From the NCBI GenBank assembly GCA_007126655.1, contig SLAV01000098.1, positions 1-40,545 on the forward strand: 40,545 bases of DNA, given 5' to 3'. Positions 4,364 to 24,069 of this stretch are shown here, in pieces (the first letter of the stretch is position 1; every line of letters starts with the position of its first letter). The notes beneath the pieces were generated by a model. That model made no database searches. It had not been told where the DNA came from and worked only from the letters and a program-made list of their open reading frames with translations. Source of the stretch: Haloferula sp. Lineage in GTDB: Bacteria; Verrucomicrobiota; Verrucomicrobiia; Verrucomicrobiales; Akkermansiaceae. The position numbers and the translations under genes were made by a program.

Positions 4364-5110
4364 ATGGACGACTTGAAAGATCATGTGGCGGTTGTGACCG
4401 GCGGCGGCCGTGGCATCGGCCGGGAAGTGGCGCGCGAGCTGGCATCCCGCGGCGCGCGCGTCGCCGTGGTAAGCCGCAACCCGGAGAGCTGCGGCAGCGC
4501 CGTTGAGGCGATCCATGCGGAATTCCCCGGACAGGCAGCCGCATACGCGGTTGACGTGGCCGATCACACCGCCGTCCAGGAGGTCGCGAAGCGGATCCTC
4601 GGCGACCTTGGCGGCACGGACATCCTCGTCAACAACGCCGGCATCACCCGTGACGGCCTGCTCATGCGAATGAAGGAGGAGGACTGGGACGCCGTGCTCG
4701 ACACGAATCTCAAAGGCGCCTTCAACACCGTGAAGGCGTTCATGCGGCCGCTCATGAAGTCGGAACATGGGCGCATCATCAACATCGCTTCCGTCATCGG
4801 CCTCATCGGCAACGCCGGGCAGGCGAACTACTCCGCCAGCAAGGCCGGCCTGATCGGCTTCACCAAGGCCGTCGCCCGCGAGCTGGCCGGCCGCGCCGTC
4901 ACCTGCAACGCCGTGGCACCCGGCTTCATCACCACCGACATGACCAGCGAGCTGCCCGAATCCGTGCGCGAGGCTGTGCTCGCCAAAATTCCGCTCGCCA
5001 CCTTTGGCGAGCCGCGTGACATCGCGGCTGCCGTCGCCTACCTGGCCGGCCCGTCCGCCCGTTACATCACCGGGCAGGTGCTCGCCGTGGACGGCGGGAT
5101 GACGATGTGA
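4364..5110 (+). CDS. fabG: 3-oxoacyl-[acyl-carrier-protein] reductase, FabG-type short-chain dehydrogenase
   Basis: This 248-residue cytoplasmic SDR most probably reduces 3-oxoacyl-ACP with NADPH in fatty-acid elongation. The nucleotide-binding TGGGRGIG is near residues 14-21, NNAG is near the middle, and the catalytic Ser-Tyr-Lys set is visible in NIASVIGLIGNAGQANYSASKAG-type order (Ser, then YSASK). The end GPSARYITGQVLAVDGGM is classic for FabG. The ATG at 4364 is chosen because family similarity starts at DDLKDHVAVVTGG, although the frame is open further upstream. No other fatty-acid gene is adjacent, so another SDR substrate such as an acetoacetyl-CoA type cannot be excluded. Confidence 0.88.
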   Translation: MDDLKDHVAVVTGGGRGIGREVARELASRGARVAVVSRNPESCGSAVEAIHAEFPGQAAAYAVDVADHTAVQEVAKRILGDLGGTDILVNNAGITRDGLLMRMKEEDWDAVLDTNLKGAFNTVKAFMRPLMKSEHGRIINIASVIGLIGNAGQANYSASKAGLIGFTKAVARELAGRAVTCNAVAPGFITTDMTSELPESVREAVLAKIPLATFGEPRDIAAAVAYLAGPSARYITGQVLAVDGGMTM

Positions 5111-5156: not shown

Positions 5157-5642
5157 ATGGAACTTTTTCTCCTCCGCCACGGCAAAGCCGAGGCCCACGG
5201 CCACCCAGGCGGCGATGGCGCGCGGGCCTTGGTCGGAAAGGGCCGTGATCAGGCGCGCGGAGCCGCGTCATTCCTCAAGGCCGCAGGCCGCCTGCCCGAT
5301 ATCGTGCTCACCAGCCCGGTCCTGCGCGCGAGTCAGACCGCCGAGGTCTTCTGCGAATCCGCCGGTCTGGACGCGCCGCTCTGGCAACCGTGGCTCGCAT
5401 GCGGCATGCGCCCGGAGGAGGCCGCCGCCGAACTCGGCGGGTTCCGGGAATTCACCCGCGTCATGATCGTCGGCCACGAACCGGATTTCTCGGTGCTCGC
5501 CGGGTGGCTGCTCGATACCCGGGCAGGCGGCGTCGAGATCAAAAAAGGCTCCCTCGCCTGCATCCGCTGCACGCCGCCATCGCGTGGCGGGCACTTGGTC
5601 TTTCTCGCGCCGCCCGCCATGATCCGCGGCGCGGCGGTCTGA
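5157..5642 (+). CDS. sixA: SixA-like phosphohistidine phosphatase
   Basis: The 161-residue histidine-phosphatase-family protein starts MELFLLRHGKAE. The RHG catalytic motif with the phosphate-accepting His is at residues 7-9, and the second conserved His is in IVGHEPDFS. SPVLRASQTAEVF matches the SPxxRAxQTA helix of SixA. The family removes phosphate from histidine of phosphorelay or nitrogen-PTS proteins. It lies 46 bases after the FabG-like gene on the same strand. Its target here is unknown; no HPt protein is nearby. Confidence 0.85.
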   Translation: MELFLLRHGKAEAHGHPGGDGARALVGKGRDQARGAASFLKAAGRLPDIVLTSPVLRASQTAEVFCESAGLDAPLWQPWLACGMRPEEAAAELGGFREFTRVMIVGHEPDFSVLAGWLLDTRAGGVEIKKGSLACIRCTPPSRGGHLVFLAPPAMIRGAAV

Positions 5643-5727: not shown

Positions 5728-7791
5728 ATGCCGCGCATCACCATCACGGTTCCGGGAAAAAACCCGCAGCCCTATTTTTTCAAACCCGAAAGGAAACAGA
5801 TCCAGATCGGGCGGGGCAGCAGCAATGAAATCGTCGTCGATTGCCCTTCGGTCTCTACCGTCCACGCCGAGCTTGTCCGCACCGACGGAGGATACGAACT
5901 CAGGGATCTCGGCTCGACCAACGGCATCAAGAAGGACGGCCAGCGCGTCAAATCCCTGCGCCTGGGGGAAACCGACAAGGCCACGCTCGGTGACGTCGCG
6001 TTCGATTTCAGCACCCTTGAGGCCGCGCCTGCAGGCGACGTCAAAACCGACGAAGACGCGGCCAAACCACCGCTTCCCGACATCAAACCGGACCCCACCG
6101 CAAAAACCGAAAACAAGGAAAACACCCCCGAATCCATGCCCGCCCCCGCCCCGGACGCCGCGCCGTCCTCCGACTCCGACTCCGCAAATTCCTCATCCCA
6201 GAGGCCCGCCGGGCTTTTCGGGCCGATTATCTTCGCCATCCTCGGCATCGCCCTGGTCGCATATGCCGTGCTCGGCATTCCACAGCGCACGGGGGACGTC
6301 AATGAATGGTATCTTTTCCTCGGCAGGTTCCACCCGCTCGTCGTCCACTTCCCGATCGGGCTGTTGGTTCTGGCCGCGCTGTTCGAGTGGATCGGGGTCA
6401 TCCGCCCGTTGCGCCACCTGCGCCGCGCGGTGCCCGCCATCCTTGTCCTCGGCGCGCTAGGCGCGTTGTCCGCAGTTTACCACGGCGTGCTGCTCACCGC
6501 CGGCGGCGGAACCATGGGCGACACCGTGGAGAGCCACCTCTGGGCCGGAGCCGCGCTGGCGGCGGTCATGTTCCTGCTCGTGCCGCTGCGCGCGACCACT
6601 TGGGAAAAACCCCGCTGGCTCACCGGCCTTTGCTACCAGGCCATGCTGCTGGCCTCACTCGTCCTGCTGGCGGCGGCCAGCCACCTCGGCGGCAGCATCA
6701 CGCACGGGCGCGAATATCTTGTCGAATACATGCCCGAGCCGTTGCGCGAGTCGCTCTCCGGGTTGCCGGAGCCGCTCCGCGACTTCATCGGCCTCACCGA
6801 GGCGGCACCACCGGTGGACGTCGAAGGCATCACCCTCTACGACGCGGTCTTCGCCGGTCCGGTCGGCCAATATTGCGTCGCCTGCCACAAGCCGGACCGC
6901 GTTCGCGGCGGGCTGCTGATGCACACGCTGGACGCCCTCCTCGAGGGTGGAAATTCCGGGCCCGCCATCGTCTATGGCGATCTTGAAGCCAGCGAACTCT
7001 TCACCCGCATCACCCTGCCGGAGGACGACGATTTACACATGCCACCCGACGGCCGCCAGGGTTTCTCCGATACCCAGATCGATTGGTTCGAATGGTGGAT
7101 CGCCTCCGGCATCCCGGGCGACACCCCCGCCGCAGAAATCACCGACGCGCCGGACGACATCCTCGAGGCCATCCATACAGCCGTCGCCGCTGCCGAGGCC
7201 GGCGGAGAAGAGGGCGATGAGGCCGACGTCGAGGAATCCGCCCCCGCCTGGACCACGGAGGAAGTCAATGCCGTCAACGAAAGCCTCGCCGCCGGCCGCA
7301 TCGTCCCCGTGTCCCGCAATCCCGAGGACGGCCTCGTCATCACCACCGCCGGTGCGGGCGACAATTTTACCGACGCCGATCTCGAAGCCATCGCGCCGCT
7401 CGGACCGTTCGTCGTCGAGGCCGACCTGTCCCGCACCGGCATCACCGACGGCGGCATGGCGACCGTCGGCGAATGGCTCGCCATCCGCCGGTTGCGCGTC
7501 GATCATACCGCCATCGGCGATTCCGGAGTCCGCGCGATCGACCGCCTCCCGGCTCTCACGTCACTCAATCTCTATCAAACCCGGATCACCAATGCCAGCG
7601 TCGAACCGCTGCTCGCCATGCCGGCGCTTGAGTCCCTGTTCGTCGGGGAGACCGCGCTGGACGATGACGCCCTCGACCGGCTCGGCCCGCTGCTTCCCGT
7701 CGTCCCGCCGCCCCCGCCCGCAGATGAAGAAGAGGGCCACGGTAACGGCGACGATTCCGAGAATCCGGAGGAGGATGCCGACGAGGATTGA
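5728..7791 (+). CDS. FHA domain - DUF2231 membrane - Planctomycete-type cytochrome - leucine-rich-like repeat protein
   Basis: This 687-residue fusion starts with an FHA phosphothreonine-binding domain (about 1-95; GRGSS at 28-32, then VSTVHAELV and LRDLGSTNG). A charged, Pro/Ala-rich linker follows, then a membrane helix at about 166-184. A DUF2231 domain with about four helices begins near 191 (WYLFLGRFHPLVVHFPIG). Next is a heme-binding segment with CxxCH at 383-387 (CVACHK) and the PSCyt1-like ending MPPDGR. The C-terminal third (about 535-660) has degenerate leucine-rich-like units and an acidic tail. Five helices would put the FHA domain in the cytoplasm and the heme and repeat domains in the periplasm, as c-type heme attachment requires. 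DUF2231-PSCyt1-repeat proteins are familiar in Verrucomicrobiota; the FHA front is the odd part. Function is unknown. Confidence 0.85.
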   Translation: MPRITITVPGKNPQPYFFKPERKQIQIGRGSSNEIVVDCPSVSTVHAELVRTDGGYELRDLGSTNGIKKDGQRVKSLRLGETDKATLGDVAFDFSTLEAAPAGDVKTDEDAAKPPLPDIKPDPTAKTENKENTPESMPAPAPDAAPSSDSDSANSSSQRPAGLFGPIIFAILGIALVAYAVLGIPQRTGDVNEWYLFLGRFHPLVVHFPIGLLVLAALFEWIGVIRPLRHLRRAVPAILVLGALGALSAVYHGVLLTAGGGTMGDTVESHLWAGAALAAVMFLLVPLRATTWEKPRWLTGLCYQAMLLASLVLLAAASHLGGSITHGREYLVEYMPEPLRESLSGLPEPLRDFIGLTEAAPPVDVEGITLYDAVFAGPVGQYCVACHKPDRVRGGLLMHTLDALLEGGNSGPAIVYGDLEASELFTRITLPEDDDLHMPPDGRQGFSDTQIDWFEWWIASGIPGDTPAAEITDAPDDILEAIHTAVAAAEAGGEEGDEADVEESAPAWTTEEVNAVNESLAAGRIVPVSRNPEDGLVITTAGAGDNFTDADLEAIAPLGPFVVEADLSRTGITDGGMATVGEWLAIRRLRVDHTAIGDSGVRAIDRLPALTSLNLYQTRITNASVEPLLAMPALESLFVGETALDDDALDRLGPLLPVVPPPPPADEEEGHGNGDDSENPEEDADED

Positions 7792-7913: not shown

Positions 7914-9551
7914 ATGAAAATCGGCATCGCCCAGCTCAACCCGGTCGTCGGGGACTTCGCGGGAAACGCGAAAAAGCTGCTCGCCGCCTACCGCGAGTGC
8001 CTGGATTCGGGTGCGGAGCTGGTGGTCGCGCCGGAGCTGTCGCTGGCCGGGTATCCGCCGCGCGACCTTGTTCTCAAGTCGCAGTTCGTGCCGAAGTGCC
8101 TGCAGGCGCTCGATTACCTCTCCGGGGAAATCGGCGCGGTGCCGCTGGTCGTGGGCACGCTGGATTTCAACGACGCCGAACGCCCCGGCAAGCCGTTCCG
8201 CAACACCGCCGCCTGGCTGGAAAACGGGGAAATCCGCCACCGCTGCCACAAGACGCTGCTGCCCACCTACGACGTCTTCGACGAAGCCCGCTATTTCGCC
8301 CCGGCGGAGCATTGCGAGCCGGTCCTCTGGAACGGCCTGCGCGTCGGCGTGACGGTGTGCGAGGACATCTGGGACGAGGATTTCCTCGAACGCCCGCTCT
8401 ACGACCGCGATCCGGTGCGCGAACTCGCCTCCTCCGGCATCGACCTCCTGCTCAACATCAGCGCCTCGCCCTACCACCTCGGCAAGCCCGCCCAGCGCGA
8501 GGCGGTGCTCGCGTCCGCCGCGCGCAAGGCGCGGGCCACCGTCGTGTATGCCAACGCCGTCGGCGGGCAGGACCAGCTCGTCTTCGACGGCCGCTCCCAG
8601 GTCGTGCGGCCCGACGGCCGCGTCGTCGCCCGCATGCCCGCCTTCGGGGAGGCTTGCGCGGTTTTCGATTGCGGGGCCGGCTCGCCCGCGCTCCCCGAGG
8701 CGGCGGAAGACGCGCCCGCCGAGTTGTTCGCCGCGCTGGTGCTCGGCTTGCGCGATTACGTGGCCAAATGCGGGTTCACCAGCGTGTGCCTCGGCCTGAG
8801 CGGCGGCATCGATTCCGCGCTCACCGCGGCGGTGGCCGTCGAGGCGCTCGGCGCGGAGAACGTCCGTGGCCTCACCATGCCCGCGCCGTATTCCTCGCGC
8901 GGCAGCATCGACGATTCCCTCGCCCTCGCGAAAAACCTCGGCATGCGCTGCGACGAAGTGCGCATCACCGCCGCCTTCGAGGAGGTGAAACAAACCATGG
9001 CCCCCGTTTTCAAGGGCATGGACGAGGACGTCACCGAGGAGAACATGCAGGCCCGCATCCGCGGCCTTCTTCTCATGGCCCTCTCCAACAAGGAGAACCG
9101 CCTGCTCCTCACCACCGGCAACAAAAGCGAGCTGGCCGTCGGATACTGCACCATCTACGGCGACATGTGCGGCGGCCTCGCCGTCATTTCGGACCTTCCG
9201 AAAACCCGTGTCTATCAGATCTGCCGGTGGCTTAACCGAGACCGCGAGGTGATCCCGTGGAACACCATCGAGAAACCGCCAAGCGCCGAGCTGCGGCCCG
9301 ACCAGAAGGACCAGGACACCCTGCCGGACTACGACGTGCTCGACGCCATCCTCGAACTCTACATCGAGAACCACCTCTCGACCGACGAGATCATCGAACG
9401 CGGTCACGACGAGGCCATGGTTCGCTGGATCCAGCGCCGTGTCGATTTCAACGAATGGAAGCGCCAGCAGGCCGCACCCGGCCTGCGCGTCACCAGCAAG
9501 GCGTTCGGCATGGGCCGGCGCATGCCAATCGCCCAGCGGTTCTCCGGGTAA
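7914..9551 (+). CDS. nadE: Glutamine-dependent NAD+ synthetase
   Basis: The 545-residue two-domain enzyme performs the last step of NAD synthesis, amidating nicotinic acid adenine dinucleotide with ammonia taken from glutamine. The N-terminal nitrilase-like glutaminase shows its Glu-Lys-Cys triad at about E41 (APELSLAGYPPRD), K113 (HKTLLPTYDVFDE) and C149 (VCEDIWDE). The C-terminal synthetase has the ATP-pyrophosphatase loop SGGIDS at 296-301, then TTGNKSELAVGYCTIYGDM. Full length agrees with the family. The ATG at 7914 begins MKIGIAQLNPVVGDF, the usual N-terminus. Confidence 0.97.
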   Translation: MKIGIAQLNPVVGDFAGNAKKLLAAYRECLDSGAELVVAPELSLAGYPPRDLVLKSQFVPKCLQALDYLSGEIGAVPLVVGTLDFNDAERPGKPFRNTAAWLENGEIRHRCHKTLLPTYDVFDEARYFAPAEHCEPVLWNGLRVGVTVCEDIWDEDFLERPLYDRDPVRELASSGIDLLLNISASPYHLGKPAQREAVLASAARKARATVVYANAVGGQDQLVFDGRSQVVRPDGRVVARMPAFGEACAVFDCGAGSPALPEAAEDAPAELFAALVLGLRDYVAKCGFTSVCLGLSGGIDSALTAAVAVEALGAENVRGLTMPAPYSSRGSIDDSLALAKNLGMRCDEVRITAAFEEVKQTMAPVFKGMDEDVTEENMQARIRGLLLMALSNKENRLLLTTGNKSELAVGYCTIYGDMCGGLAVISDLPKTRVYQICRWLNRDREVIPWNTIEKPPSAELRPDQKDQDTLPDYDVLDAILELYIENHLSTDEIIERGHDEAMVRWIQRRVDFNEWKRQQAAPGLRVTSKAFGMGRRMPIAQRFSG

Positions 9552-13626: not shown

Positions 13627-13728
13627 CTCAATCTTTCCAGTCCATGTATAAGCTCAAGCCCAACGCCCTGGACTTCGAGCATTATTCCGAAAAAAACCTC
13701 GCCTCAGGAGGTGGAATTCTATATCTGC

Positions 13729-16700
13729 ATGGAGATGCGCTGTTTCCTTGCCGTCGCTCTCATTGCTTTCACCTCATGGCTTCCCGCCACGGCGGAACCC
13801 GCGGATTTCCTCTCATCCCGCACTGAACTCCGCCTCGGCGAAAGCGTGATGATCCCCCTCCAGCGCGCCACCCCGGCGGAAACCCGAGTCACCACCACAC
13901 TCACCGCCGACCCGCCCGGCGTGGTCGAAATCCTCCACGAACCCGAATTCCTCGCCGGCCACGACACCGGCTTCGCCCGAGTCCGCACCCTCGCCCCCGG
14001 CGAAACCACCCTCCGCCACGGCGAATCCGAACTGCAAATCCACATCACCGGAGAGCGCCCGATCTCCATGGTCCGCCAGATGCGCCCGCGCTTCACATCG
14101 CCATCCGAAAACAGCGCCGCCTGGGGCACCATCGCCATCGGCGCGGAAATGTGGGTCGGCGCACCCGGCGTGGACCGCATGCGCGAACCCGAGGCCAGAC
14201 TCCACCTCCCCGATGGTCGCGAAATCTCCGCCGACGAGGCATTCCCACCCGTCGATGGCCCCTTCTGGCGTCTGGTCTTCCACCTCGACACCACCACCCT
14301 GCCCCCCGGCGAAGCCGCCCTCACCCTCTCCGCCACGCCCCCCCTCGATGGCGAAGAAAACCCCGCCCCGCTCACCAGCGAACCCCACACCATCATCATC
14401 CTGCCCCCGCCCGGCGAAGACGACATCCTCTTCTCCGGCGAATGCGAGGACGCCCTCGAAACCCCGCGCACCGATCGCATGGGCCGCGAACCACCCGGCG
14501 TCGTCATGGCGCCCGGCGCATCCGGCTACCGCGCCGTCGCCCTACGCCGCCGCCGGCCCGTATGGGTCATCAAACCCGAAATCCCCGAAGCCGGGCGCTA
14601 CCAGCTCATGGTCCGCGCGCGCGGCACCCTCGCTGGCTCCGCCTACCCGTCGCTCGGCATCGTCCTCGGCGAAAATGCCAGCAACTCATCCTCCGTCCGC
14701 CTCGCCTCCGCCGACTGGCATGACGTCCCCGTCGGCCGCCCGATCACGCTCGAAGAAGGCCCGCAATGGATCGGCCTCACGCTCGCCAACGAATTCAACT
14801 ACCGCAACCAAATCGTCCGCCTCGCCGAGATCGACCGCTACCAACTCCGCCGCGTCCCCGACGACCTCGCCAGCGGCGGCTCCTCCATGATGATGGGCGG
14901 CACCATGATGGCCGCCGATACCCCGTCCGAAGAAAAAGACACCGAAAAACGCGCCGACCAACTCCGCGTCGCCTTCACCAGCCTCGTCGATGGCGACGCC
15001 ATCCGCGGCCGCACCACCCTCAACGCCACCCTGCGCAGCCCGTCGCTGCGCCACGAGCGCGACTACCCGCAGATCCGCTCCGACCTCTGGATCAACGGCC
15101 GCGTCGCCGCCTCCGCCCGCGGCCAGCACCCGTCGTTCACCGTCCACGCCCACGACTTCCAACCCGGCGAAAACACCATCCAGGTCCACTCCGTATCCCC
15201 CTGCGGAAATCAGGCGCTCACCACCGAACAAACGCTCCACGCCACATCAAAAGCCCACCCCGAATCCCGCCTCGACACCACCTTCAACCACGACCGCTAC
15301 GCCCTCAACCGCGGCAACTGGCGTCACATCAACCGCACCCGCATCGACGACGACAACCCCCTCGCCGGCCCCGATGCCCCCGACCACGCCCACACCCTGA
15401 CCACCCGCCGCGCCACCCGCTTCGAAATCCCCCGCAACATCACCGGCCCGCGCCGCCTCGCCATCCAAACCCGCGCCATCCCCGAGTCCGAACCCGGCAC
15501 CCTCATCGTCACCCTCCACCAACCCGACGCCCGCCCGCGCCGCAACCGCGAGATCGAACTCGCCCGCCACACCCCCGGCGAATCCTGGCAATGGCACGCC
15601 CTCGACACCATCGACATCGCCAGCGGTCGCAAATGGATCACCTTCGACCTCACCGAAGGTGAAGCCGCCCTCGGCGGATGCAGCATCGACACCGAAGTCT
15701 TCATCGACGCCGCCCCACCCGTCGTCGAAGTCCTCTACCCAACACCCGGCTCCCACCTCTCCGCCGATGGCGACGCCATCGTCCTCCACGCCTTCGACGA
15801 CCTCGCCCTCAGCCGCTTCGAACTCTTCATCGATGGGGAAAAACAACCCCTCCCCTACCCCGCCGGCAACACCACCGGCCCCGTCGTCCTCCACATCCCC
15901 GGCGCATGGCTCGCGCCCGGCGCGCGCACCCTCGAAGTCGCCGCCATCGACGAATCCGGCAAAACCACCCGCACCCCCGCCATCGACGTCGAAGTCCGCG
16001 CCGAAACCGGCCCCGAACTCACCCTCGCCTACCCGCGCGCCATCCGCCTCGCCACCAACCTCGGCCTCGGCCTCGACACCCGCACCATCGCCGCCATCCT
16101 CACCAAGGGCGAGCAACCCTGGCTCGACGCCCAGCTCGACGCCGCCGACACCACCTGCCCCCACATCGACGCCCTCGCCGGGACGTTGTTCCCCACCATC
16201 AGCGACTACAACATCCGTGGACGCGTCGTCACCGACCTCCTCGCCACCCGCCACCCCGTGCGCGCGCGCTTCGCCATGTTCGCCCAGAACCACTTCTCCA
16301 CCTGGATAAGCAAAACCGGGGCCGATGCCAAATGGCGAGAACACACCGCCTTCCGCGACCTCGGCCCCGCCCGCTTCCAAGACCTCCTCCTCACCTCCGC
16401 CACCTCCCCCGCCATGATGGTCTATCTCGACCAACAAAACAGCTTTGGCCGCCAGCTCAACGAAAACTACGCCCGCGAGGTCATGGAACTCCACACCGTC
16501 GGCGTCCACGCCGGCTACACCCAGGACGACGTCGCCCAGCTCGCCATGCTCCTCAGTGGCTGGGGTGCCCAGCGCGAGTCCACCATGGACGGCGGCTCCA
16601 TCGGCCACGAATACCGCTTCTCCCCCTACCTCGCCGCCCCCGACCCGCTCGAAGTCTTCGGACTCGCCGTCCCCGCCGCAGGCACTCCCGACACCGCCGA

Positions 16701-17358
16701 CCACCGCGTCCGCATGGTCATCGAAATGCTTGCCTCCCGCCCGCAGACCGCCCGCTTCATCGCCGAAAAAATGGTCGCCCACTACCTCGGCCTGCCCGCC
16801 CACGAACCCACCGTCGCCGCCCTCGAAGCCGAGTTCCACCACAGCGGCGGCAACCTCCGCAGCATGCTCGCCATGCTCGCCACCTCCCCCGGCATGATGG
16901 CCACCGACCGACCCGGAAAAATCCTCGCCCCCGTCGAATTCGGCGTCGCCACCCAACGCGCCGCCGCCACGCTCCACCCGTGGTCCGTCATCGACCTCGC
17001 CGACCGCAGTGGCCGCAACCTCTTCGACCGCGCCAGCCCCGACGGCTTCCCCGAAAGCAACGACGAATACTCGGACTCCAACTACCAGCTCCAGAAATGG
17101 CGTTTCTGCCAACACCTCGAATGGCAGCTCCGCGGCCACCTCCCCTCCCAAGCCTTCACCCCCGAAGCCCTCGCCGACCCCGCCACCCGCGACGCCCTCA
17201 TCGACCTCGCCACCGCCCAGCGCCTCGGAGCCCGACCCACCGAATCCACCCGCCAGGCCCTCCACCAAATCCTCACCCAGGAAATCCCCGATCAAAACCA
17301 ACACCGCAACCTCTTCACCACCTTCCTCCACATGACCCCCGCCTTCCAAACCCGCTAA
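13729..17358 (+). CDS. Secreted DUF1800 protein with carbohydrate-binding-like and Ig-like modules
   Basis: The roughly 1209-residue protein begins with a signal peptide (MRCFLAVALIAFTSWLPATA). At about 234-375 there is a carbohydrate-binding-like module (FSGECEDA ... GRYQLMVRARGTLAGSAYPS). A short Met-rich run, SSMMMGGTMMAAD, lies near 384. An Ig-like region follows at about 663-760, and the C-terminal 430 residues are a DUF1800 domain (QNHFSTWISK, QNSFGRQLNENYAREVMELH). DUF1800 has no settled activity. The start is uncertain: ATGs at 13729 and 13735 both precede the signal peptide, and AGGAGG at 13706-13711 is too far from either for ideal spacing. The partner DUF1501 gene follows 34 bases later. 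Codons are extremely C-rich. Confidence 0.88.
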   Translation: MEMRCFLAVALIAFTSWLPATAEPADFLSSRTELRLGESVMIPLQRATPAETRVTTTLTADPPGVVEILHEPEFLAGHDTGFARVRTLAPGETTLRHGESELQIHITGERPISMVRQMRPRFTSPSENSAAWGTIAIGAEMWVGAPGVDRMREPEARLHLPDGREISADEAFPPVDGPFWRLVFHLDTTTLPPGEAALTLSATPPLDGEENPAPLTSEPHTIIILPPPGEDDILFSGECEDALETPRTDRMGREPPGVVMAPGASGYRAVALRRRRPVWVIKPEIPEAGRYQLMVRARGTLAGSAYPSLGIVLGENASNSSSVRLASADWHDVPVGRPITLEEGPQWIGLTLANEFNYRNQIVRLAEIDRYQLRRVPDDLASGGSSMMMGGTMMAADTPSEEKDTEKRADQLRVAFTSLVDGDAIRGRTTLNATLRSPSLRHERDYPQIRSDLWINGRVAASARGQHPSFTVHAHDFQPGENTIQVHSVSPCGNQALTTEQTLHATSKAHPESRLDTTFNHDRYALNRGNWRHINRTRIDDDNPLAGPDAPDHAHTLTTRRATRFEIPRNITGPRRLAIQTRAIPESEPGTLIVTLHQPDARPRRNREIELARHTPGESWQWHALDTIDIASGRKWITFDLTEGEAALGGCSIDTEVFIDAAPPVVEVLYPTPGSHLSADGDAIVLHAFDDLALSRFELFIDGEKQPLPYPAGNTTGPVVLHIPGAWLAPGARTLEVAAIDESGKTTRTPAIDVEVRAETGPELTLAYPRAIRLATNLGLGLDTRTIAAILTKGEQPWLDAQLDAADTTCPHIDALAGTLFPTISDYNIRGRVVTDLLATRHPVRARFAMFAQNHFSTWISKTGADAKWREHTAFRDLGPARFQDLLLTSATSPAMMVYLDQQNSFGRQLNENYAREVMELHTVGVHAGYTQDDVAQLAMLLSGWGAQRESTMDGGSIGHEYRFSPYLAAPDPLEVFGLAVPAAGTPDTADHRVRMVIEMLASRPQTARFIAEKMVAHYLGLPAHEPTVAALEAEFHHSGGNLRSMLAMLATSPGMMATDRPGKILAPVEFGVATQRAAATLHPWSVIDLADRSGRNLFDRASPDGFPESNDEYSDSNYQLQKWRFCQHLEWQLRGHLPSQAFTPEALADPATRDALIDLATAQRLGARPTESTRQALHQILTQEIPDQNQHRNLFTTFLHMTPAFQTR

Positions 17359-17392: not shown

Positions 17393-18661
17393 ATGCACCC
17401 CACCCGCCGCACCTTCCTCCGCACCACCGGCAGCTTCGCCCTGCTCGGCAGTCTCGCCCCGTTCCAAGTCTTCGCCGGCTCCGGCCCCGACGTCCGTCCC
17501 ACCCGCAAAGGCAAGACCCTCGTCGCCGTCTTCCTGCGCGGCGGCATCGACGGTCTCAACGTCATCGTCCCCCATGCCGATCGCGATTACTACCGCCACC
17601 GCAGCTCCCTCGCCATCGCCCGCCCCTCCCGCGGCAACCGCGACGCCTGCCTCGACCTCGACGGCTACTTCGGCCTCCACCCCTCCGCCGAAGCCCTCAT
17701 GCCCCACTTCAACGACGGCACCGTCCGCGCCCTCCAGGCCGTCGGCTACGCCAAAAACACCCGCTCCCACTTCGAAGAGCAGGACACCTGGGAAACCGCC
17801 GTCGCCGGCAACGCCCTCTCCGCCGACGGCTGGCTCAACCGCCACCTCGCCAGTTCCACCGGCCACGGCACCATCCGCGCCGTCGCCATCGGCGGCAACC
17901 TCCCGCGCATGCTCCGCGGCAGCGCCCCCGCCTACGCCATCCGCGGCATCGAAGACCTCGCCATGCCCACCACCCCCGGCGATGCCGACGTCCTCCGCAC
18001 CGCCCTCGAAACCGCATACTGCACCCAGCCGGATGCCGCCCACCACCCGCTCGCCGACCTCCTCGCCCAGACCGCCAGCGCCACCCTCGAAGGCACCCGC
18101 CAGCTCGAAGCCCTCGCCAAAGAGGAATACCAACCCGCCCACGGAGCCACCTACGCCAACAACGGCGTCGCCCGCCAGTTCCGCGAAGCCGCCCGCCTCA
18201 TCAAGGCCGGCCTCGGCACCGAGGTCATCCAGATCGACTACGGCGGCTGGGACACCCACAACAACCAGGGCGCCACCACCGGCGGCTTCCCCAACCGCCT
18301 GCACGCCCTCACCGAAGCCATGGCCGCCTTCAATCAAGACCTCGGCGACAAAATGGACGACGTCCTCGTCCTCACCCTCAGCGACTTCGGCCGCACCGTC
18401 CGCCAGAACGGCAACAACGGCACCGACCACGGCTGGGCCAACTGCATGCTCGCCATGGGCGGCGCCCTCGCCAAAAACGACGCCCCCGTCCTTGGCGACT
18501 GGCCCACCCTCGCCGTCGAAAAACTCGAACGTGGCCGCGACCTCCAGCACACCACCGACTTCCGCGACGTCCTCGCCGAAGCCGCCGCCCGCCACCTCGG
18601 CAACCCCAACACCACCCACATCATCCCCGACCACCCCGCCAAACCCGTCGGCCTCGTCTGA
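17393..18661 (+). CDS. Tat-exported DUF1501 protein
   Basis: The 422-residue protein starts MHPTRRTFLRTTGSFALLGS, a twin-arginine signal with a hydrophobic stretch ending near FAGSG. The mature part has the DUF1501 hallmarks VAVFLRGGIDGLNVIVPHAD, GYFGLHPSAEALMPHF, YGGWDTHNNQG and TLSDFGRTVRQNGNNGTDHG. The family is related to the alkaline phosphatase/sulfatase fold and typically sits beside DUF1800, as here. The pair is probably exported together, with the function unknown. Family members are often mislabelled as sulfatases. The codon style is the same as in the DUF1800 gene, supporting a shared history. Confidence 0.92.
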   Translation: MHPTRRTFLRTTGSFALLGSLAPFQVFAGSGPDVRPTRKGKTLVAVFLRGGIDGLNVIVPHADRDYYRHRSSLAIARPSRGNRDACLDLDGYFGLHPSAEALMPHFNDGTVRALQAVGYAKNTRSHFEEQDTWETAVAGNALSADGWLNRHLASSTGHGTIRAVAIGGNLPRMLRGSAPAYAIRGIEDLAMPTTPGDADVLRTALETAYCTQPDAAHHPLADLLAQTASATLEGTRQLEALAKEEYQPAHGATYANNGVARQFREAARLIKAGLGTEVIQIDYGGWDTHNNQGATTGGFPNRLHALTEAMAAFNQDLGDKMDDVLVLTLSDFGRTVRQNGNNGTDHGWANCMLAMGGALAKNDAPVLGDWPTLAVEKLERGRDLQHTTDFRDVLAEAAARHLGNPNTTHIIPDHPAKPVGLV

Positions 18662-18922: not shown

Positions 18923-19427
18923 TTATTTTTGCGCCACTTTGAGTAGCCAGGAGCCGTAGGCGATTTGGTTTTTCAGATGAAGATTGGCGTCGTAGGTGGT
19001 GTGGTCGTGCCACATACGCCAGATGATTTTTATCCAGCGTTGTCCCAGCGCACGCAATGCTTGCGCATGACTGACGCCACGCTGGCGTTGCTGGGAGGTT
19101 TGCGACCGCCAGAGCTTGTGGACATGAAGGAACTTTTCCCATTGTCTCTTGCCTGCTTTGGTCAGCACTTGGGCGGTAGGAAAACAAACGTTCGACGAAT
19201 GCCCAGGCGTAAGGTGCGGTCCAATCATCGAAAATCTCCAGTGCGGCAGGGTAGTATTCGCGCAGAGTCTGGCGCAACTGACAGATCAGTGCGGTCCGCT
19301 CCTCAATAAGCTGATGTGTTACGGGTTGCAACAACCCCTTGATAGCATAGGTCGGGACAGGTTTGCCATTCGGGGCATGACTCGGCCCGGCTCCAGCTTT
19401 CCAGACAGGCAGTCGAGGAAAATGCTA
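18923..19427 (-). mobile_element. IS110-family transposase relic
   Basis: Minus-strand translation gives FPRLPVWKAGAGPSHAPNGK, HQLIEERTALICQLRQTLRE, YYPAALEIFDDW and FVERL, the linker region of IS110 transposases. After a frameshift near 19180 it continues with LTKAGKRQWEKFLHVHKLW. It then jumps directly to GVSHAQALRALGQRWIKIIW and a C-terminus at 18923. The N-terminal DEDD nuclease region and the Transposase_20 domain are missing, so the element is dead. Its upstream edge coincides with the stop codon of the GH95 gene (19425-19427). No terminal repeats are visible, as expected for the family. Confidence 0.8.
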
Positions 19428-21803
19428 TGGCATAAATTCGACGCTTTCGCCGGCTTCGGTCGCATGGGTTTCCTCGTGGTCGCCGTAGCGGATGGTTAGC
19501 GGTCCGCCCAGGCGGGAGTGGATGACGGCCCGGACGAGTCCTCCGTCGCGCCATTCCATGTCCACCACGAAGCCGCCGCGGACGGTGAAGCCGCGGGCGG
19601 AGCCGGTCGCCCATGATTCCGGGCGCGCGGGCAGGAGGTCAACGGCACCGTCGTGGCTTTGCACGAGGATTTCGGCGATCGCGTTGGTGAGGCCGAAGTT
19701 CTGGTCGAGCTGGCAGCGATGGTCGCCGAAGAAATTGGGCGACGGGCGGGCGGCGAGCTGGTCGAGCGCCTTGAGGGCCGTCTCGCCATCGCCGAATCGT
19801 GCATACATGGCGCTGCGCCAGGCCATCGCCCATCCCGCGCCCTTGATGCCGCGGTTGACGAGGGATTTGTGCGTGGCTTCGGCCAGCTCCGGCGTCTTGC
19901 GCGGCGAAATCTGCAGGCCGGGATGGAATCCGACGAGGTGGGAGAGGTGGCGGTGTTCCGGGTCGGCCTCGCGCTCGATTTCGATGCCCCATTCAAGGAT
20001 GTCTCCGTCCTTGCCGATGCGCGGGTATTCCAGTTCTTCGAGGGTGTTGCGGATGTCGGTGAGGAATGCTTCCTCCTCCTCCTCGATGCCGAGGATGGCG
20101 GCGGCCTCCAGCGTGTCGGTCATGATCTGCCAGGTGATGCTCTGTTCGTAGGCGGTCACCGGGCCGATTTCGGAGAACTGTTCCTCGCCGTCTTCATCGA
20201 GGTAATGAAATCCGATTTCGTGGGAAGCGGCCGCGCGCGGCACCCACTTGCCGGTCTCCGCGTCGCGGATGAGCCAACTGCGGACGAATTCACAGGTTTC
20301 GCGGAGAATCGGCCAGCCGCGTTCGCGGAGCATGTCGGTGTCGCCGGAGTAGCGGTGGTGCTCCATGATGTCCATGGCTTGCCAGGGTGCGGAAATGAGC
20401 GATCCGCTCCAGCGTGGTTCGCGTGCCTTGGAGATGCACCGTCCCCAGAGGTTGAGCGCGTGCGGCGTGCAGAATCCCTCGGCACCGTAGGCTTGCGCCA
20501 TTTTCCGGCCCTCTTCGCGGAGCATGTCGAGCAGCCAGAAAATCGGCTCATGGCACTCGATGAGACCGGTGGTGAACGCCGGCCAGTAGTTCATCTGCAT
20601 GTTGATGTTGAGGTGGTAGTCGCTCTGCCACGGGTTGCGCAACTGGTGCGCCCAGATTCCCTGGAGGTTCGCGGGACGCGTTCCGGGCCGGGATGAGGAG
20701 ACCAGCAGGTAACGGCCGAACTGGAAGTATTTCTCCATGAGTTCCGGATCGGATGCGGTTCCGTCGAACCGTTCGAGGCGTTCGTCGTTGGGCAGGGCGC
20801 GAAGCTCCGGCGCGCTTTCGCCGAGATCAATGTCGCAACGGTGCATGAGGGAGGCCACGTCATCCATCGAATCCTGCTTGATTTTCTCCCATGGCTTTTC
20901 CTCTGCTTTGGCGAGGATTTCGGCGGCTTGCTTCTGCCATCCGTCGGGCAGGGGTTGTTGGGGCTGGTCCGGATTGTAATCGGTCGCGCAGGTGAGCAGC
21001 AGGGTGACGCCGCCGGCCTCGCGCACGTGCAGGACGCCGTCTTCATCGCCGGCGGTCACGGTGCCGCTGTCTGGCAGCACTTTCACGAGCGTCGAGAACT
21101 TCGTGCCGAGATAGCGGTCCGCGGCCCGGGGGTATTGGGCCTGGCCCTCGAAAAGCAGGGTGTCGTCCGCGGTGGCGACCGGGCGGATGCTTCTCGCCGG
21201 GTGGGTCATGCTGAGGTCGAAATCGAGGCCGCCTTCCGCAGTGGTGGTGATCCGGATGGCGATGCAGTCGTCAACCGCCGAGCTGACCGTTTCCTGCGTG
21301 ATCACCGAACCGTCCGACAACGGTTGCGTGATGGTGACCAGGCCGGTGGCGATGTCGAGGCTGCGGCGGTAGCCGTCGTCCGCCGGCTCCACATCGCCGA
21401 TGTGCTCGATCCACAGGTCGCCCATGGTCTGATATGAACCGATCTGCGGCGCATCGGCCATGATGATCTCGGTCGCATACAAATCATGTGCCTCCCGGTA
21501 TTTCCCGGCCTCCACCAGTTCTTGTGCCTCGGCGACGCGATACCTGGTGGTTTCCGGGTGCCGCATCATCGGCTCCCTGGCCCAGATGGTGTCTTCGTTG
21601 AGCTGGATCCGCTCTTTCGGATAGATGCCCTGGACCATCGCACCAAGACGCCCGTTCCCCACGGGCAACCCGAGTTTCCACTCCTCTGAAGGTTGGTTGA
21701 ACCAAATTTCGCGCGGTTCCTGCCAGGGTTCCTGGCCATGGGCCGAGGCGGATGCTCCGAGATGGACGAACAATGCGGCAAGAAGGAATCGGAAACAATT
21801 CAT
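19425..21803 (-). CDS. Secreted glycoside hydrolase family 95 (alpha-L-fucosidase or alpha-L-galactosidase)
   Basis: The 792-residue protein has a signal peptide (FRFLLAALFVHLGASASAHG) and the GH95 N-terminal domain (WFNQPSEEWKLGLPVGNGRL, IQLNEDTIWA). The catalytic barrel has NLQGIWAHQLRNPWQSDYH, LNINMQMNYWPA with the paired Asn of the base, SHEIGF with the probable acid Glu, and HRCQLDQNFG, where most members have QIDGNFG. This would cleave alpha-1,2-L-fucose or related L-galactose from glycans in the periplasm or outside. The Met at 21803 is preferred over upstream in-frame Met codons because it starts the signal peptide and has GAGAGG before it. It diverges from the GH27 gene. The QLDQNFG variant may alter specificity. 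Confidence 0.9.
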   Translation of the reverse strand: MNCFRFLLAALFVHLGASASAHGQEPWQEPREIWFNQPSEEWKLGLPVGNGRLGAMVQGIYPKERIQLNEDTIWAREPMMRHPETTRYRVAEAQELVEAGKYREAHDLYATEIIMADAPQIGSYQTMGDLWIEHIGDVEPADDGYRRSLDIATGLVTITQPLSDGSVITQETVSSAVDDCIAIRITTTAEGGLDFDLSMTHPARSIRPVATADDTLLFEGQAQYPRAADRYLGTKFSTLVKVLPDSGTVTAGDEDGVLHVREAGGVTLLLTCATDYNPDQPQQPLPDGWQKQAAEILAKAEEKPWEKIKQDSMDDVASLMHRCDIDLGESAPELRALPNDERLERFDGTASDPELMEKYFQFGRYLLVSSSRPGTRPANLQGIWAHQLRNPWQSDYHLNINMQMNYWPAFTTGLIECHEPIFWLLDMLREEGRKMAQAYGAEGFCTPHALNLWGRCISKAREPRWSGSLISAPWQAMDIMEHHRYSGDTDMLRERGWPILRETCEFVRSWLIRDAETGKWVPRAAASHEIGFHYLDEDGEEQFSEIGPVTAYEQSITWQIMTDTLEAAAILGIEEEEEAFLTDIRNTLEELEYPRIGKDGDILEWGIEIEREADPEHRHLSHLVGFHPGLQISPRKTPELAEATHKSLVNRGIKGAGWAMAWRSAMYARFGDGETALKALDQLAARPSPNFFGDHRCQLDQNFGLTNAIAEILVQSHDGAVDLLPARPESWATGSARGFTVRGGFVVDMEWRDGGLVRAVIHSRLGGPLTIRYGDHEETHATEAGESVEFMP

Positions 21804-22148
21804 GAGGCCTCTCAATACGTGGCTTGGTGTGGCCTTTTGTCGGAAAAACCGAAAATTTCGAGGCAATAAGGTGTTCCGCGACGAACCATTCCGAGTTTCG
21901 ATTGCCAGGAAGCATCCCATCAACTATTCCCATGCCGCCTTGCACCGCGCCACTGGTGCGAAAAGCCGGGCGATATGGTTTGGTGCAGCCCGGACAGAAG
22001 CGTATGAATGTGAAAACACCTCCCATCCGGGGATATTTTCCGCAGCTTGAAACCGTATCGAAAGCATTCCGCACGATTTACGTGAGTCAATGATCCGCAA
22101 ATCCATGTGGTAAACGTGCCGAAAACGACCTTAGCATCCGACTGAAAC
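21804..22148. promoter_or_regulatory. Divergent intergenic region between GH95 and GH27 genes
   Basis: The 345 bases hold no convincing gene and are clearly richer in A+T than the flanking genes. They must contain the start signals of both glycoside hydrolase genes. A short palindrome CGAAA-A-TTTCG lies at 21850-21860, and GTAAACG just before the GH27 gene resembles half of a LacI-type operator. I could not identify a strong promoter on either strand. Confidence 0.5.
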
Positions 22149-23852
22149 ATGAGAAAACCGATGAATTCCCAGGGGCGGCACCTCCTTGGCAAAGCCTGCC
22201 TTCTAACAATAAATTTCGCGGTTCTGTCCACCGCTTCGCCGGCAGCCGGCCGGGATCCGGTTTATGATGCCAGAGTCGCGGAGGGTGAAATCCTCACGCC
22301 GCTCCCTGGCGACGCTCCGACGATCAACGGGGCCGGAATCCGTGGTGTGCGTGAGAACAAGCATTTCGTTTACCGGATCCCCTGCCAAGGCAAGCGGCCG
22401 ATCCAGTTCAAAGTGGAAGGACTGCCCGGAAGCATGGAGCTCGACGCGGAACGCGGAGTGATCCGCGGTCGCACGCCGATGGAAGCTGGCGATTACGAGA
22501 TGACAATTCATGCCGGCAACGCGCACGGAGAGGACTCGCGATCCCTGAAGCTGGTGGTCGGTGGCAAGCTCGCACTCACACCGCCCACCGGCTACAGCAG
22601 TTGGGGCGGGCACATGCTCGACATCAATCACGACACGGTGCTCAAGGTCCTCGACGTGTTCGTCAACGAGGGACTTGCGGACGCGGGATTCGAGTTCATC
22701 TGCATCGACGACGGATGGGGCCTGATCGATCCGGATTTGTATGCGGGCAACGTTTTCAAGGACAAGTTCGCGGACTCCGGCTTCAATACCGAGGCGGCGA
22801 GAGAATGGTGTGAGAACCAATTCCGCCGGATGGGCGACTTCGACCCGGCCAGCGTGGTCGGGCGCACGCGCGATGACGAGGGCCGGCCATTGACCAATCA
22901 CCACTTCCCGGACATGAGGGGCATGGTTGACGCGCTTCATGCGGAGGGGATCAAGGCGGGCATTTACAGCAGCCCCGGATTGACCACCTGCCAGATCCAG
23001 CTTGGCTCATGGGGGCATGAGGCGATTGATGCCAGGCAGTTCGCCGAGTGGGGTTTTGATTTTCTGAAATACGACCGCTGCGGCATCAGATTCCGGATCG
23101 CCAAGGCAAGGGCGGAGGGAGGTGATTTCACCATCGAGGACATTTGGAAGCCCATGATCGGTCACCTGCGCGAGCAGGACCGGGACATCATTTACAACCT
23201 GTGCCAGTATGGAATCCAGCAGCCCTGGACCTGGGCTCCGGAGTGGGACATGCAGTCCTGGCGGATCGGAGGCGATCTGAATACCCATGTCCACGGCTAT
23301 TTCGACCTGGCTTTGCGCATCGCCGGGGATCTCCGGGACTACAGCAAGCCGGGACAGTGGAACGATCCCGATTTCATGTATATCCATTACATCAAGGATG
23401 TGGACAACAAGGGAGGACCCTCCAGCGAGATCCAACAAAACACGAACGAGCGCTACCAGTATGCCACACTGTGGTCCATCGTCTGCGCTCCCTACTTTTT
23501 CTCGACCGACATCCACAAGATCGACGAATTCACCATCCGGCTGCTCGCCAACGCCGAGATCGTGAACGTCAATCAGGACGAACTGGGCGTGGTTGCCAAA
23601 GTGCGCCGCGAGACCGATGAGGAGGTTGTCATGACGAAACCGCTCGCCGACGGCAGCCAGGTCCTGGCGCTTTTCAGTCGCAACCCGGATGAGGAATCCG
23701 TCATTTCGGTGACATGGGAGGAAATTGGCATCGATGGCCCGCAATCGCTGCGCGATCTCTGGCGGCACGACGATATCGGTGTCCACACCGAGGGAATCCG
23801 CGTCCGCCTGAGCCCGTCCGGTTGTGCGGTCTTCCGGATGCGGCAGCCTTAG
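22149..23852 (+). CDS. Secreted glycoside hydrolase family 27 alpha-galactosidase with an N-terminal Ig-like domain
   Basis: The 567-residue protein has a signal peptide (about 1-35), a putative Ig-like domain (about 55-135; PIQFKVEGLPGSMELDAERG) and a GH27 barrel from TPPTGYSSWGGHMLDIN. ICIDDGWG and FLKYDRCG carry substrate-binding and nucleophile Asp (about D309). The likely acid/base is in SWRIGGDLNTH (about D376). GQWNDPDFM and VNQDELGVVAK are conserved family blocks. It would release terminal alpha-D-galactose, or beta-L-arabinopyranose in some members. A second possible start lies four codons downstream. It is followed on the same strand by the GH120 gene. Confidence 0.93.
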   Translation: MRKPMNSQGRHLLGKACLLTINFAVLSTASPAAGRDPVYDARVAEGEILTPLPGDAPTINGAGIRGVRENKHFVYRIPCQGKRPIQFKVEGLPGSMELDAERGVIRGRTPMEAGDYEMTIHAGNAHGEDSRSLKLVVGGKLALTPPTGYSSWGGHMLDINHDTVLKVLDVFVNEGLADAGFEFICIDDGWGLIDPDLYAGNVFKDKFADSGFNTEAAREWCENQFRRMGDFDPASVVGRTRDDEGRPLTNHHFPDMRGMVDALHAEGIKAGIYSSPGLTTCQIQLGSWGHEAIDARQFAEWGFDFLKYDRCGIRFRIAKARAEGGDFTIEDIWKPMIGHLREQDRDIIYNLCQYGIQQPWTWAPEWDMQSWRIGGDLNTHVHGYFDLALRIAGDLRDYSKPGQWNDPDFMYIHYIKDVDNKGGPSSEIQQNTNERYQYATLWSIVCAPYFFSTDIHKIDEFTIRLLANAEIVNVNQDELGVVAKVRRETDEEVVMTKPLADGSQVLALFSRNPDEESVISVTWEEIGIDGPQSLRDLWRHDDIGVHTEGIRVRLSPSGCAVFRMRQP

Positions 23853-23874
23853 GCGGTCGACGACCGCGCGGTCG
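23853..23874. terminator. GC palindrome just after the GH27 gene
   Basis: Three copies of the same 7-mer alternate in orientation: GCGGTCG, CGACCGC and GCGGTCG. The last two make a perfect 14-base palindrome at 23861-23874. ATTTACTTTCC follows, so weak termination is possible. It could equally be a protein-binding site. Confidence 0.4.
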
Positions 23875-24023
23875 ATTTACTTTCCGCTGAAGACCGTGGC
23901 AACAGCCGGCGGCCGGAACGGAGGCGTGGGTTTTCGGTCGAGCCCTTCTTGAAGAGCATTGGGTGGTGTTGATCGCTCTGCCGTGCCTCTTGATCCGAAC
24001 TTAGCCAGTGCCCCGGGAAAGGT

Positions 24024-24045
24024 TTCACGCATGATTCACGCATGA
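24024..24045 (+). promoter_or_regulatory. Two exact tandem copies of TTCACGCATGA before the GH120 gene
   Basis: The 11-mer TTCACGCATGA occurs at 24024-24034 and 24035-24045, about one helical turn apart. TGTGACG follows immediately, so TCAC and GTGA also face each other over seven bases. The block ends 24 bases before the GH120 ATG, a position suited to an operator or activator site. Confidence 0.45.
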
Positions 24046-24069
24046 TGTGACGTATGGTAATGCCAAACG

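Follow-up and report, generated by a model that had tools for sequence, protein, structure and literature searches.

An FHA domain joined in one chain to a DUF2231-PSCyt1 membrane cytochrome in Haloferula, with similar fusions in related genomes

We describe a gene from a draft genome of Haloferula sp. whose product joins an FHA domain, a predicted reader of phosphothreonine, to a predicted membrane cytochrome in a single chain. The gene occupies positions 5728-7791 on the plus strand of the window, the whole 40,545-nucleotide stretch of DNA that was analysed, and is one uninterrupted open reading frame of 687 amino acids, running from ATG to stop with no internal stop. Proteins with PSCyt and PSD domains are numerous in some Verrucomicrobia and planctomycetes, and a cytoplasmic FHA handle would offer a route to a phosphorylated partner and hence to the process that these cytochromes serve. 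Similar fusions in relatives hint that protein-kinase signalling and membrane cytochromes are connected.

Domain architecture

An earlier note on this DNA had read an FHA domain, five predicted helices including DUF2231, a CxxCH site and leucine-rich-like repeats in one chain; Pfam and hydropathy agree, and the order FHA, linker, five predicted helices with DUF2231, PSCyt1 and LRR-like region is confirmed as real (Table 1). The FHA domain (PF00498) scores 53.7 bits against a cut-off of 20.7 (E 2.9e-14), PSCyt1 (PF07635) 58.6 bits against 22 (E 9.8e-16) and DUF2231 (PF09990) 29.8 bits against 26.4 (E 7.1e-7). LRR_6, LRR_8 and LRR_4 all fall under their Pfam cut-offs in the window protein (LRR_6 at 15.6 bits against 23.4). 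The same region can be aligned to the repeats of homologues, one of which (L146) passes with LRR_6 at 35.6 bits, and the solved repeat proteins 4q62 and 9j7j match the window protein by sequence with E under 1e-3. None of the NCBIfam whole-protein models TagH (36.7 bits against 120.25), GltG (32.3 against 650), FhaB (36.5 against 125) and EspA (32.6 against 1400) reaches its cut-off, and matches to NCBIfam FHA-protein models are confined to the front of the protein, ending at residue 153 or earlier. The acidic C-terminal tail recurs in the nearest cytochrome homologue, L007. Third-position GC is high all along the gene (FHA 0.76, linker 0.73, TM-DUF2231 0.86, cytochrome 0.83, LRR 0.80), and overall GC is 0.59 in the FHA part against 0.66-0.68 in the DUF2231, cytochrome and LRR parts.

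Table 1. Parts of the fusion gene and its neighbours, in window coordinates
Feature	Position	Strand	Remark
fabG, adjoining sixA	4364-5110		
SixA-like histidine phosphatase (His_Phos_1), upstream neighbour	5157-5642	+	
FHA region, residues 1-97 (Pfam core 26-87 = 5803-5988)	5728-6018	+	predicted cytoplasmic
Linker rich in Asp/Glu/Pro/Ser, residues 98-163	6019-6216	+	
Transmembrane helix 1, residues 166-184	6223-6279	+	predicted in to out
DUF2231, residues 201-324, helices 2-5	6328-6699	+	Pfam and hydropathy
PSCyt1 cytochrome c domain, residues 383-442	6874-7053	+	CVACH at 6874-6888
Leucine-rich-like repeats, about residues 560-655	7405-7692	+	under Pfam cut-offs in the window protein
Acidic C-terminal tail, about residues 660-687	7705-7788	+	
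NAD synthase, downstream neighbour	7914-9551	+	

Conserved sites and membrane topology

The phosphothreonine pocket of FHA domains is marked by GR, S..H and N-G motifs. In the window protein the pocket residues G28, R29, S41, S43, H46, S63, T64, N65 and G66 are invariant across all 30 rows of the FHA alignment (30 of 33 rows, leaving out L055, L072 and L073), and the same residues are retained in five other fused FHA domains (L145, L146, L147, L148 and L150). The nearest solved FHA domain by sequence is that of Rv1747 (E 9.9e-9). With its pocket kept, the domain is predicted to bind phosphothreonine.

The cytochrome alignment used 24 of 51 available rows. The heme motif CVACH falls at residues 383-387, with C383, C386 and H387 present in 23 of the 23 rows that have letters there, and M438 (7039-7041) is conserved in 24 of 24 rows, the window's own included. 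We therefore predict from these residues that the PSCyt1 domain carries heme, with Met438 as its likely second axial ligand. Histidines 202, 207, 270 and 319 of DUF2231 are conserved in 23 of 23 rows and His326, just past the Pfam match, in 22 of 23. All five (6328-6705) lie at the predicted periplasmic face, and a second redox or metal (heme) site at this cluster is plausible.

Hydropathy scanning marks five hydrophobic stretches at residues 166-184, 204-222, 238-256, 271-289 and 298-316, the last four inside the DUF2231 match. Counts of K+R to D+E are 4/0 and 2/1 for the loops predicted inside and 2/2 and 0/2 for those predicted outside. Attachment of c-type heme takes place on the outer (periplasmic) side of the inner membrane. 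Taken together, helices and charges place the FHA domain in the cytoplasm by the positive-inside rule, with the heme and the repeats predicted to lie across the inner membrane. The earlier note had put the FHA domain opposite the heme domain and had named their lying on the same side as the outcome that would speak against its idea; the predicted topology sides with the former. That note's interpretation, which went on to suggest that Ser/Thr kinase signalling could be linked to periplasmic electron transfer or redox sensing, is partly supported.

Among six FHA-less homologues, the helix scan gives five helices in L035, L036 and L010 and four in L004, L006 and L050; L146 and L150 also have four. 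One stretch is sub-threshold in the four-helix homologues, so the five-helix reading is less firm for the family than for the window protein. A single-sequence AlphaFold model was poor (mean pLDDT 44.9, pTM 0.27), too poor for a fold search, yet it has helices at all five predicted places.

Ancestry of the two halves

In 59 genomes including G000 (58 with a match), the FHA part and the cytochrome part match separate places in the other genomes. Among the matches listed there, cytochrome-part rows covering DUF2231 begin at residue 113 or beyond, and a separate FHA row starts from residue 1 in at least 31 of 36 same-genus relatives. A wider set of 73 same-genus genomes (61 with a match at 1e-40) likewise has, besides G000, no listed row that begins before residue 113. 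The standalone FHA protein is laid out as MPR, FHA, linker, helix and short tail, with one predicted helix in 28 of 29 rows and two in the remaining one. The window's own genome, which has two FHA domains in all by Pfam, encodes such a protein on contig 171 (L052), 49% identical to the fused FHA.

Phylogenies of the two halves differ. A first FHA tree puts the fused domain within a 31-row same-genus group (100/99, against two distant rows), beside L054 (90/77). A second tree with more rows, which leaves out the distant L072 and L073, groups it with L161, L146 and L150 (81/94) in a part of the tree that brings long branches together; rows in the trees were trimmed to the shared part. The fused FHA has a long branch in both (0.83 in the first, 0.49 in the second). 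Its exact place varies, and the trees indicate that the domain is a member of a family that is normally standalone and tail-anchored in this genus. The cytochrome half falls outside the clade of its genus. It pairs with L007, from another family (100/99), near f17 sequences; L007 fills 46% of the columns in the cytochrome tree. The second cytochrome tree leaves out L120 (a very long branch), L141 (identical to the query) and L150 (truncated). The gene thus joins two modules that differ in ancestry.

The earlier note had also named a finding that would undo the fusion, namely homologues that start after the linker with a separate FHA gene upstream. Part of this is what we found: the listed same-genus homologues of the cytochrome part do begin beyond residue 112, and there is a separate FHA gene. 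In the 32 FHA loci examined, however, that gene is not upstream of the cytochrome gene, and other genomes carry the fusion too, so the gene is a real fusion and its start is not mis-called. An ancestral gene pair, with FHA first and the cytochrome next, which we had considered, is likewise unseen in those 32 loci. In G028 an FHA gene and a cytochrome gene share a contig about 32 kb apart, and in L068, L158 and L161 PSCyt1-type genes are found a few kb or less from FHA genes; such genes are common here, and we attach no weight to this closeness.

Fusions in other genomes

Four strict searches, whose draws overlapped and each held the window's own genome, covered 384, 73, 386 and 387 genomes. 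With E cut-offs set respectively to 1e-60, 1e-40, 1e-64 and 1e-64, they gave no other fusion among the matches listed; those of 384, 386 and 387 genomes scored at most three candidates per genome. That the window fusion is a singleton was overturned by a search with the FHA part alone; G691 had been among the 386 genomes of the strict search, its fusion below the E cut-off. Of 386 genomes of the order, 267 had matches at 1e-9. Matches were listed down to E 1.3e-17 and within the order, so the spread of fusions is a lower bound. We examined eight places, comprising six listed rows with open frames of at least 395, a contig-end row in G671 and one row in G048. Five hold fusions (L145, L146, L147, L148 and L150), all in draft genomes; in L149, L152 and, at a greater distance, L151 (G048), the FHA protein stands alone.

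These fusions fall into several types. L146 (G691, 639 aa) has the order FHA-TM-DUF2231-PSCyt1-LRR, with FHA, PSCyt1 and LRR_6 over their cut-offs and DUF2231 at 22.2 bits against 26.4. In its counterpart L150 (G671) a contig end truncates the chain past DUF2231, whose 26.4 bits just equal the cut-off. L147 (87-3170, plus strand, 1028 aa) reads FHA-TM-PSCyt1-PSD3-PSD5-PSD4-PSCyt3-PSD2, and L148 (3-2057, minus strand, 685 aa) is of the same FHA-TM-PSCyt1-PSD type, cut within PSD4. In L145 (G451:C102, 1352-2764, minus strand) the same FHA family sits on a MoxR-type AAA ATPase (AAA_3, E 9.5e-62). L145 comes from the window's genus, and the other four belong to g26, another genus in that family. 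As near copies, L146 and L150 are counted as one case; L147 and L148, which make up a clade (100/99), may also be a single case.

Forcing the cytochrome halves of the window protein (P0001) and L146 together cost 106 log units (p-AU 0.000117), L146 being itself a long branch. Because these two cytochrome halves are not sisters, the combination was assembled more than once, and the PSD-type fusion is a third combination. Holding the three DUF2231-type FHA domains together was not rejected (p-AU 0.159), nor was holding the four g26 fused FHA domains together (p-AU 0.385). The FHA may thus have joined independently, or one FHA front may have moved later onto another cytochrome; either route is compatible with the trees.

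Comparison with known systems

The closest relatives by architecture are FHA-less DUF2231-PSCyt1-LRR cytochromes, which share the helices, the CxxCH domain and the repeats (identity 34% for L004, 36% for L035 and 39% for L036) but, unlike the window protein, lack FHA and have only a short tail ahead of the helices, their start lying past the linker. L007 (G048) is 50% identical over residues 420-648, its start lost to a contig end. L146 and L150 of g26 match the window protein in the order FHA-TM-DUF2231(-PSCyt1-LRR) and keep the pocket, with an FHA 41% identical to the window's, whereas their cytochrome half is 27% identical and of a different lineage. The same-genus standalone FHA proteins (such as L057 and the own L052) share the MPR-FHA start, the pocket, 46-65% identity over the FHA and a membrane anchor after the linker; they differ in that a single helix with a short tail stands where the window protein has DUF2231, heme domain and LRR, and their genes lie elsewhere in the genome. 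L147 and L148 resemble the window protein in placing the same FHA family before an exported PSCyt1 cytochrome and differ from it in having one anchor helix, no DUF2231, a large PSD part and, in L147, a second CxxCH. Two distant loci from named relatives, L033 and L034, were left out of the comparison.

Further afield, the FHA-ABC transporter Rv1747 and GarA/OdhI are relatives of the FHA part by sequence. These proteins are actinobacterial and use the FHA domain as a kinase-dependent handle on another module. FHA sits on a transporter in Rv1747 and is free in GarA/OdhI, and neither is joined to a cytochrome. To our knowledge, no other protein combines a phosphothreonine reader with a c-type heme on opposite sides of a membrane. 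In the open-access literature we found no protein combining FHA with DUF2231, PSCyt1 or a c-type cytochrome; an entry in a domain database or a mention in a subscription paper is quite possible. The passages of PMC2754498 that mention FHA and PSD1 concern different proteins. In PMC5615132 the text and legend on PSCyt/PSD proteins name no FHA, and the same passages give nothing as known of the functions of these proteins.

Possible function and alternatives

With moderate confidence, we read the window protein as a phospho-dependent membrane dock, in which FHA would tie a phosphothreonine protein to a periplasm-facing cytochrome. A planctomycete-type membrane cytochrome would have had its short cytoplasmic N-terminal tail swapped for FHA. 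The FHA domain would bind a cytosolic protein that carries phosphothreonine, in the simplest case a Ser/Thr kinase that has phosphorylated itself, or a substrate of that kinase, so that this partner would be docked or clustered at the cytochrome, or the cytochrome placed where the kinase is active. Periplasmic electron transfer could fall to the DUF2231 bundle and the c-type heme, and the LRR region would serve for protein or ligand contact. We lean towards an inside-out direction of the signal, the state of the kinase controlling the cytochrome's site of action or its partner.

We infer docking as the function, and this FHA family probably served as a membrane dock before the fusion. Because the parent FHA is itself predicted to be membrane-anchored, the simplest reading is that a phospho-dependent dock exchanged its bare anchor for a cytochrome. 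In support, FHA recurs on membrane cytochromes, of the DUF2231 type in L146 and L150 and of the PSCyt1-PSD type in L147 and L148. Against it, the FHA-MoxR fusion L145 may mean that the domain moves between proteins and has no particular connection with redox, the long branch of the fused FHA could reflect relaxed constraint, and among the listed rows other same-genus genomes lack the fusion. The four-helix scans of several homologues and the poor structural model, which lends the arrangement no support, also weigh against it.

The traffic could also run outside-in, with the state of the heme or an LRR ligand altering the helix bundle and hence the grip of the FHA on its phosphoprotein, so that the periplasm is reported to kinases. 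We consider this unlikely. A single chain crosses the membrane, the five conserved histidines at the predicted periplasmic face lie beside the c-heme site, and metal or envelope sensing would fit the neighbours of two fusions: L150 adjoins a TonB-receptor gene with a ZnuA-type importer gene near (Pfam), and L146 is flanked by genes that by eye resemble those for TonB receptors. Such neighbours are absent beside the window gene, though, and the approximately 66 low-complexity residues between FHA and helix 1 would be a poor mechanical coupler. We know of no conformational link, and in L147 and L148 the FHA is tied to the cytochrome domain by one helix. Nor do we give much credit to a neutral or structural swap, which seems improbable; here the FHA would be a folded tail or a self-association domain that reads no phosphorylation, on a cytochrome working like its FHA-less relatives. 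The listed same-genus homologues manage without FHA, the FHA branch is long and the fusion partner varies, but all six fused FHA domains keep the pocket residues and FHA is found on exported cytochromes in three combinations.

Two further explanations concern the gene itself. It is very unlikely that it yields both the full protein and an FHA-less cytochrome started at Met137 in the linker (6136-6138). That codon aligns by MAFFT with the start Met of cytochrome-only homologues, in a gapped region where the alignment is weak, and AAGGA stands at 6115-6119, 16 bases before the ATG; ribosome-binding sites usually lie closer than 16 bases, and the spacing is long for one. An assembly or binning artefact that joined genes of two organisms in the linker we hold to be extremely improbable. 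The genome is a draft of 390 contigs, the halves differ in ancestry and FHA GC is below that of the DUF2231, cytochrome and LRR parts. Yet a single frame with high third-position GC spans the joint, the gene is internal to a 40.5-kb contig, where it follows the fabG-sixA pair that relatives also keep, and the same or a similar architecture occurs in other draft genomes, which makes a lone misassembly unlikely.

The wider meaning might be that Ser/Thr-kinase signalling and respiration are coupled across the membrane: threonine phosphorylation inside would gate, or be informed by, electron transfer outside, with FHA grafted repeatedly onto exported planctomycete-type cytochromes in this bacterial family. 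We offer this wider reading tentatively and think it doubtful.

Genomic setting

The fabG-sixA pair is found together in 28 of 29 sixA loci of relatives, and an FHA-less cytochrome gene stands beside it in G032, in divergent orientation (L025). The pair was considered and set aside as a functional clue, since the fusion does not accompany it in relatives; together with NAD synthase, this setting says little about function. Neither a kinase nor a protein phosphatase could be recognised next to the gene, with Pfam run on some of the window's genes, and this too weighs against the dock. Elsewhere the own genome has eight Pkinase matches over the cut-off, perhaps in fewer genes as two share one contig, and two Cytochrom_C_asm matches, candidates for heme attachment. 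A neighbour of the own standalone FHA (9035-11002 in L052) that by eye looked kinase-like was set aside, its trimmed version having no Pfam match at 0.01. Downstream of L147 lies a DUF1552 gene; DUF1552 proteins are the usual partners of PSD proteins.

By eye, standalone FHA loci often have a small divergent bactofilin-like gene (L059, L060, L064 and L076; L054, L056 and L058), and some have a DacA-like carboxypeptidase gene downstream, so the parent FHA perhaps has a cell-envelope role. Genus g26 also has short FHA-only proteins of 105-127 aa: L157 (4741-5121, minus strand), L158 (5184-5567, minus), L159 (2142-2459, minus) and L160 (2981-3298, plus). The L158 gene lies just upstream of a hisD-like gene on the same strand (by eye). 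A second FHA protein of the same-genus genome G447 (L161, 4655-5410, plus strand) apparently has two helices after its FHA domain, again by eye. Further along the window are a DUF1800-DUF1501 pair (13711-17358 and 17393-18661) and, at 19425-25917, sugar-degradation genes for a GH95-type protein, an alpha-galactosidase-type protein and a GH120-insertion/beta-helix protein.
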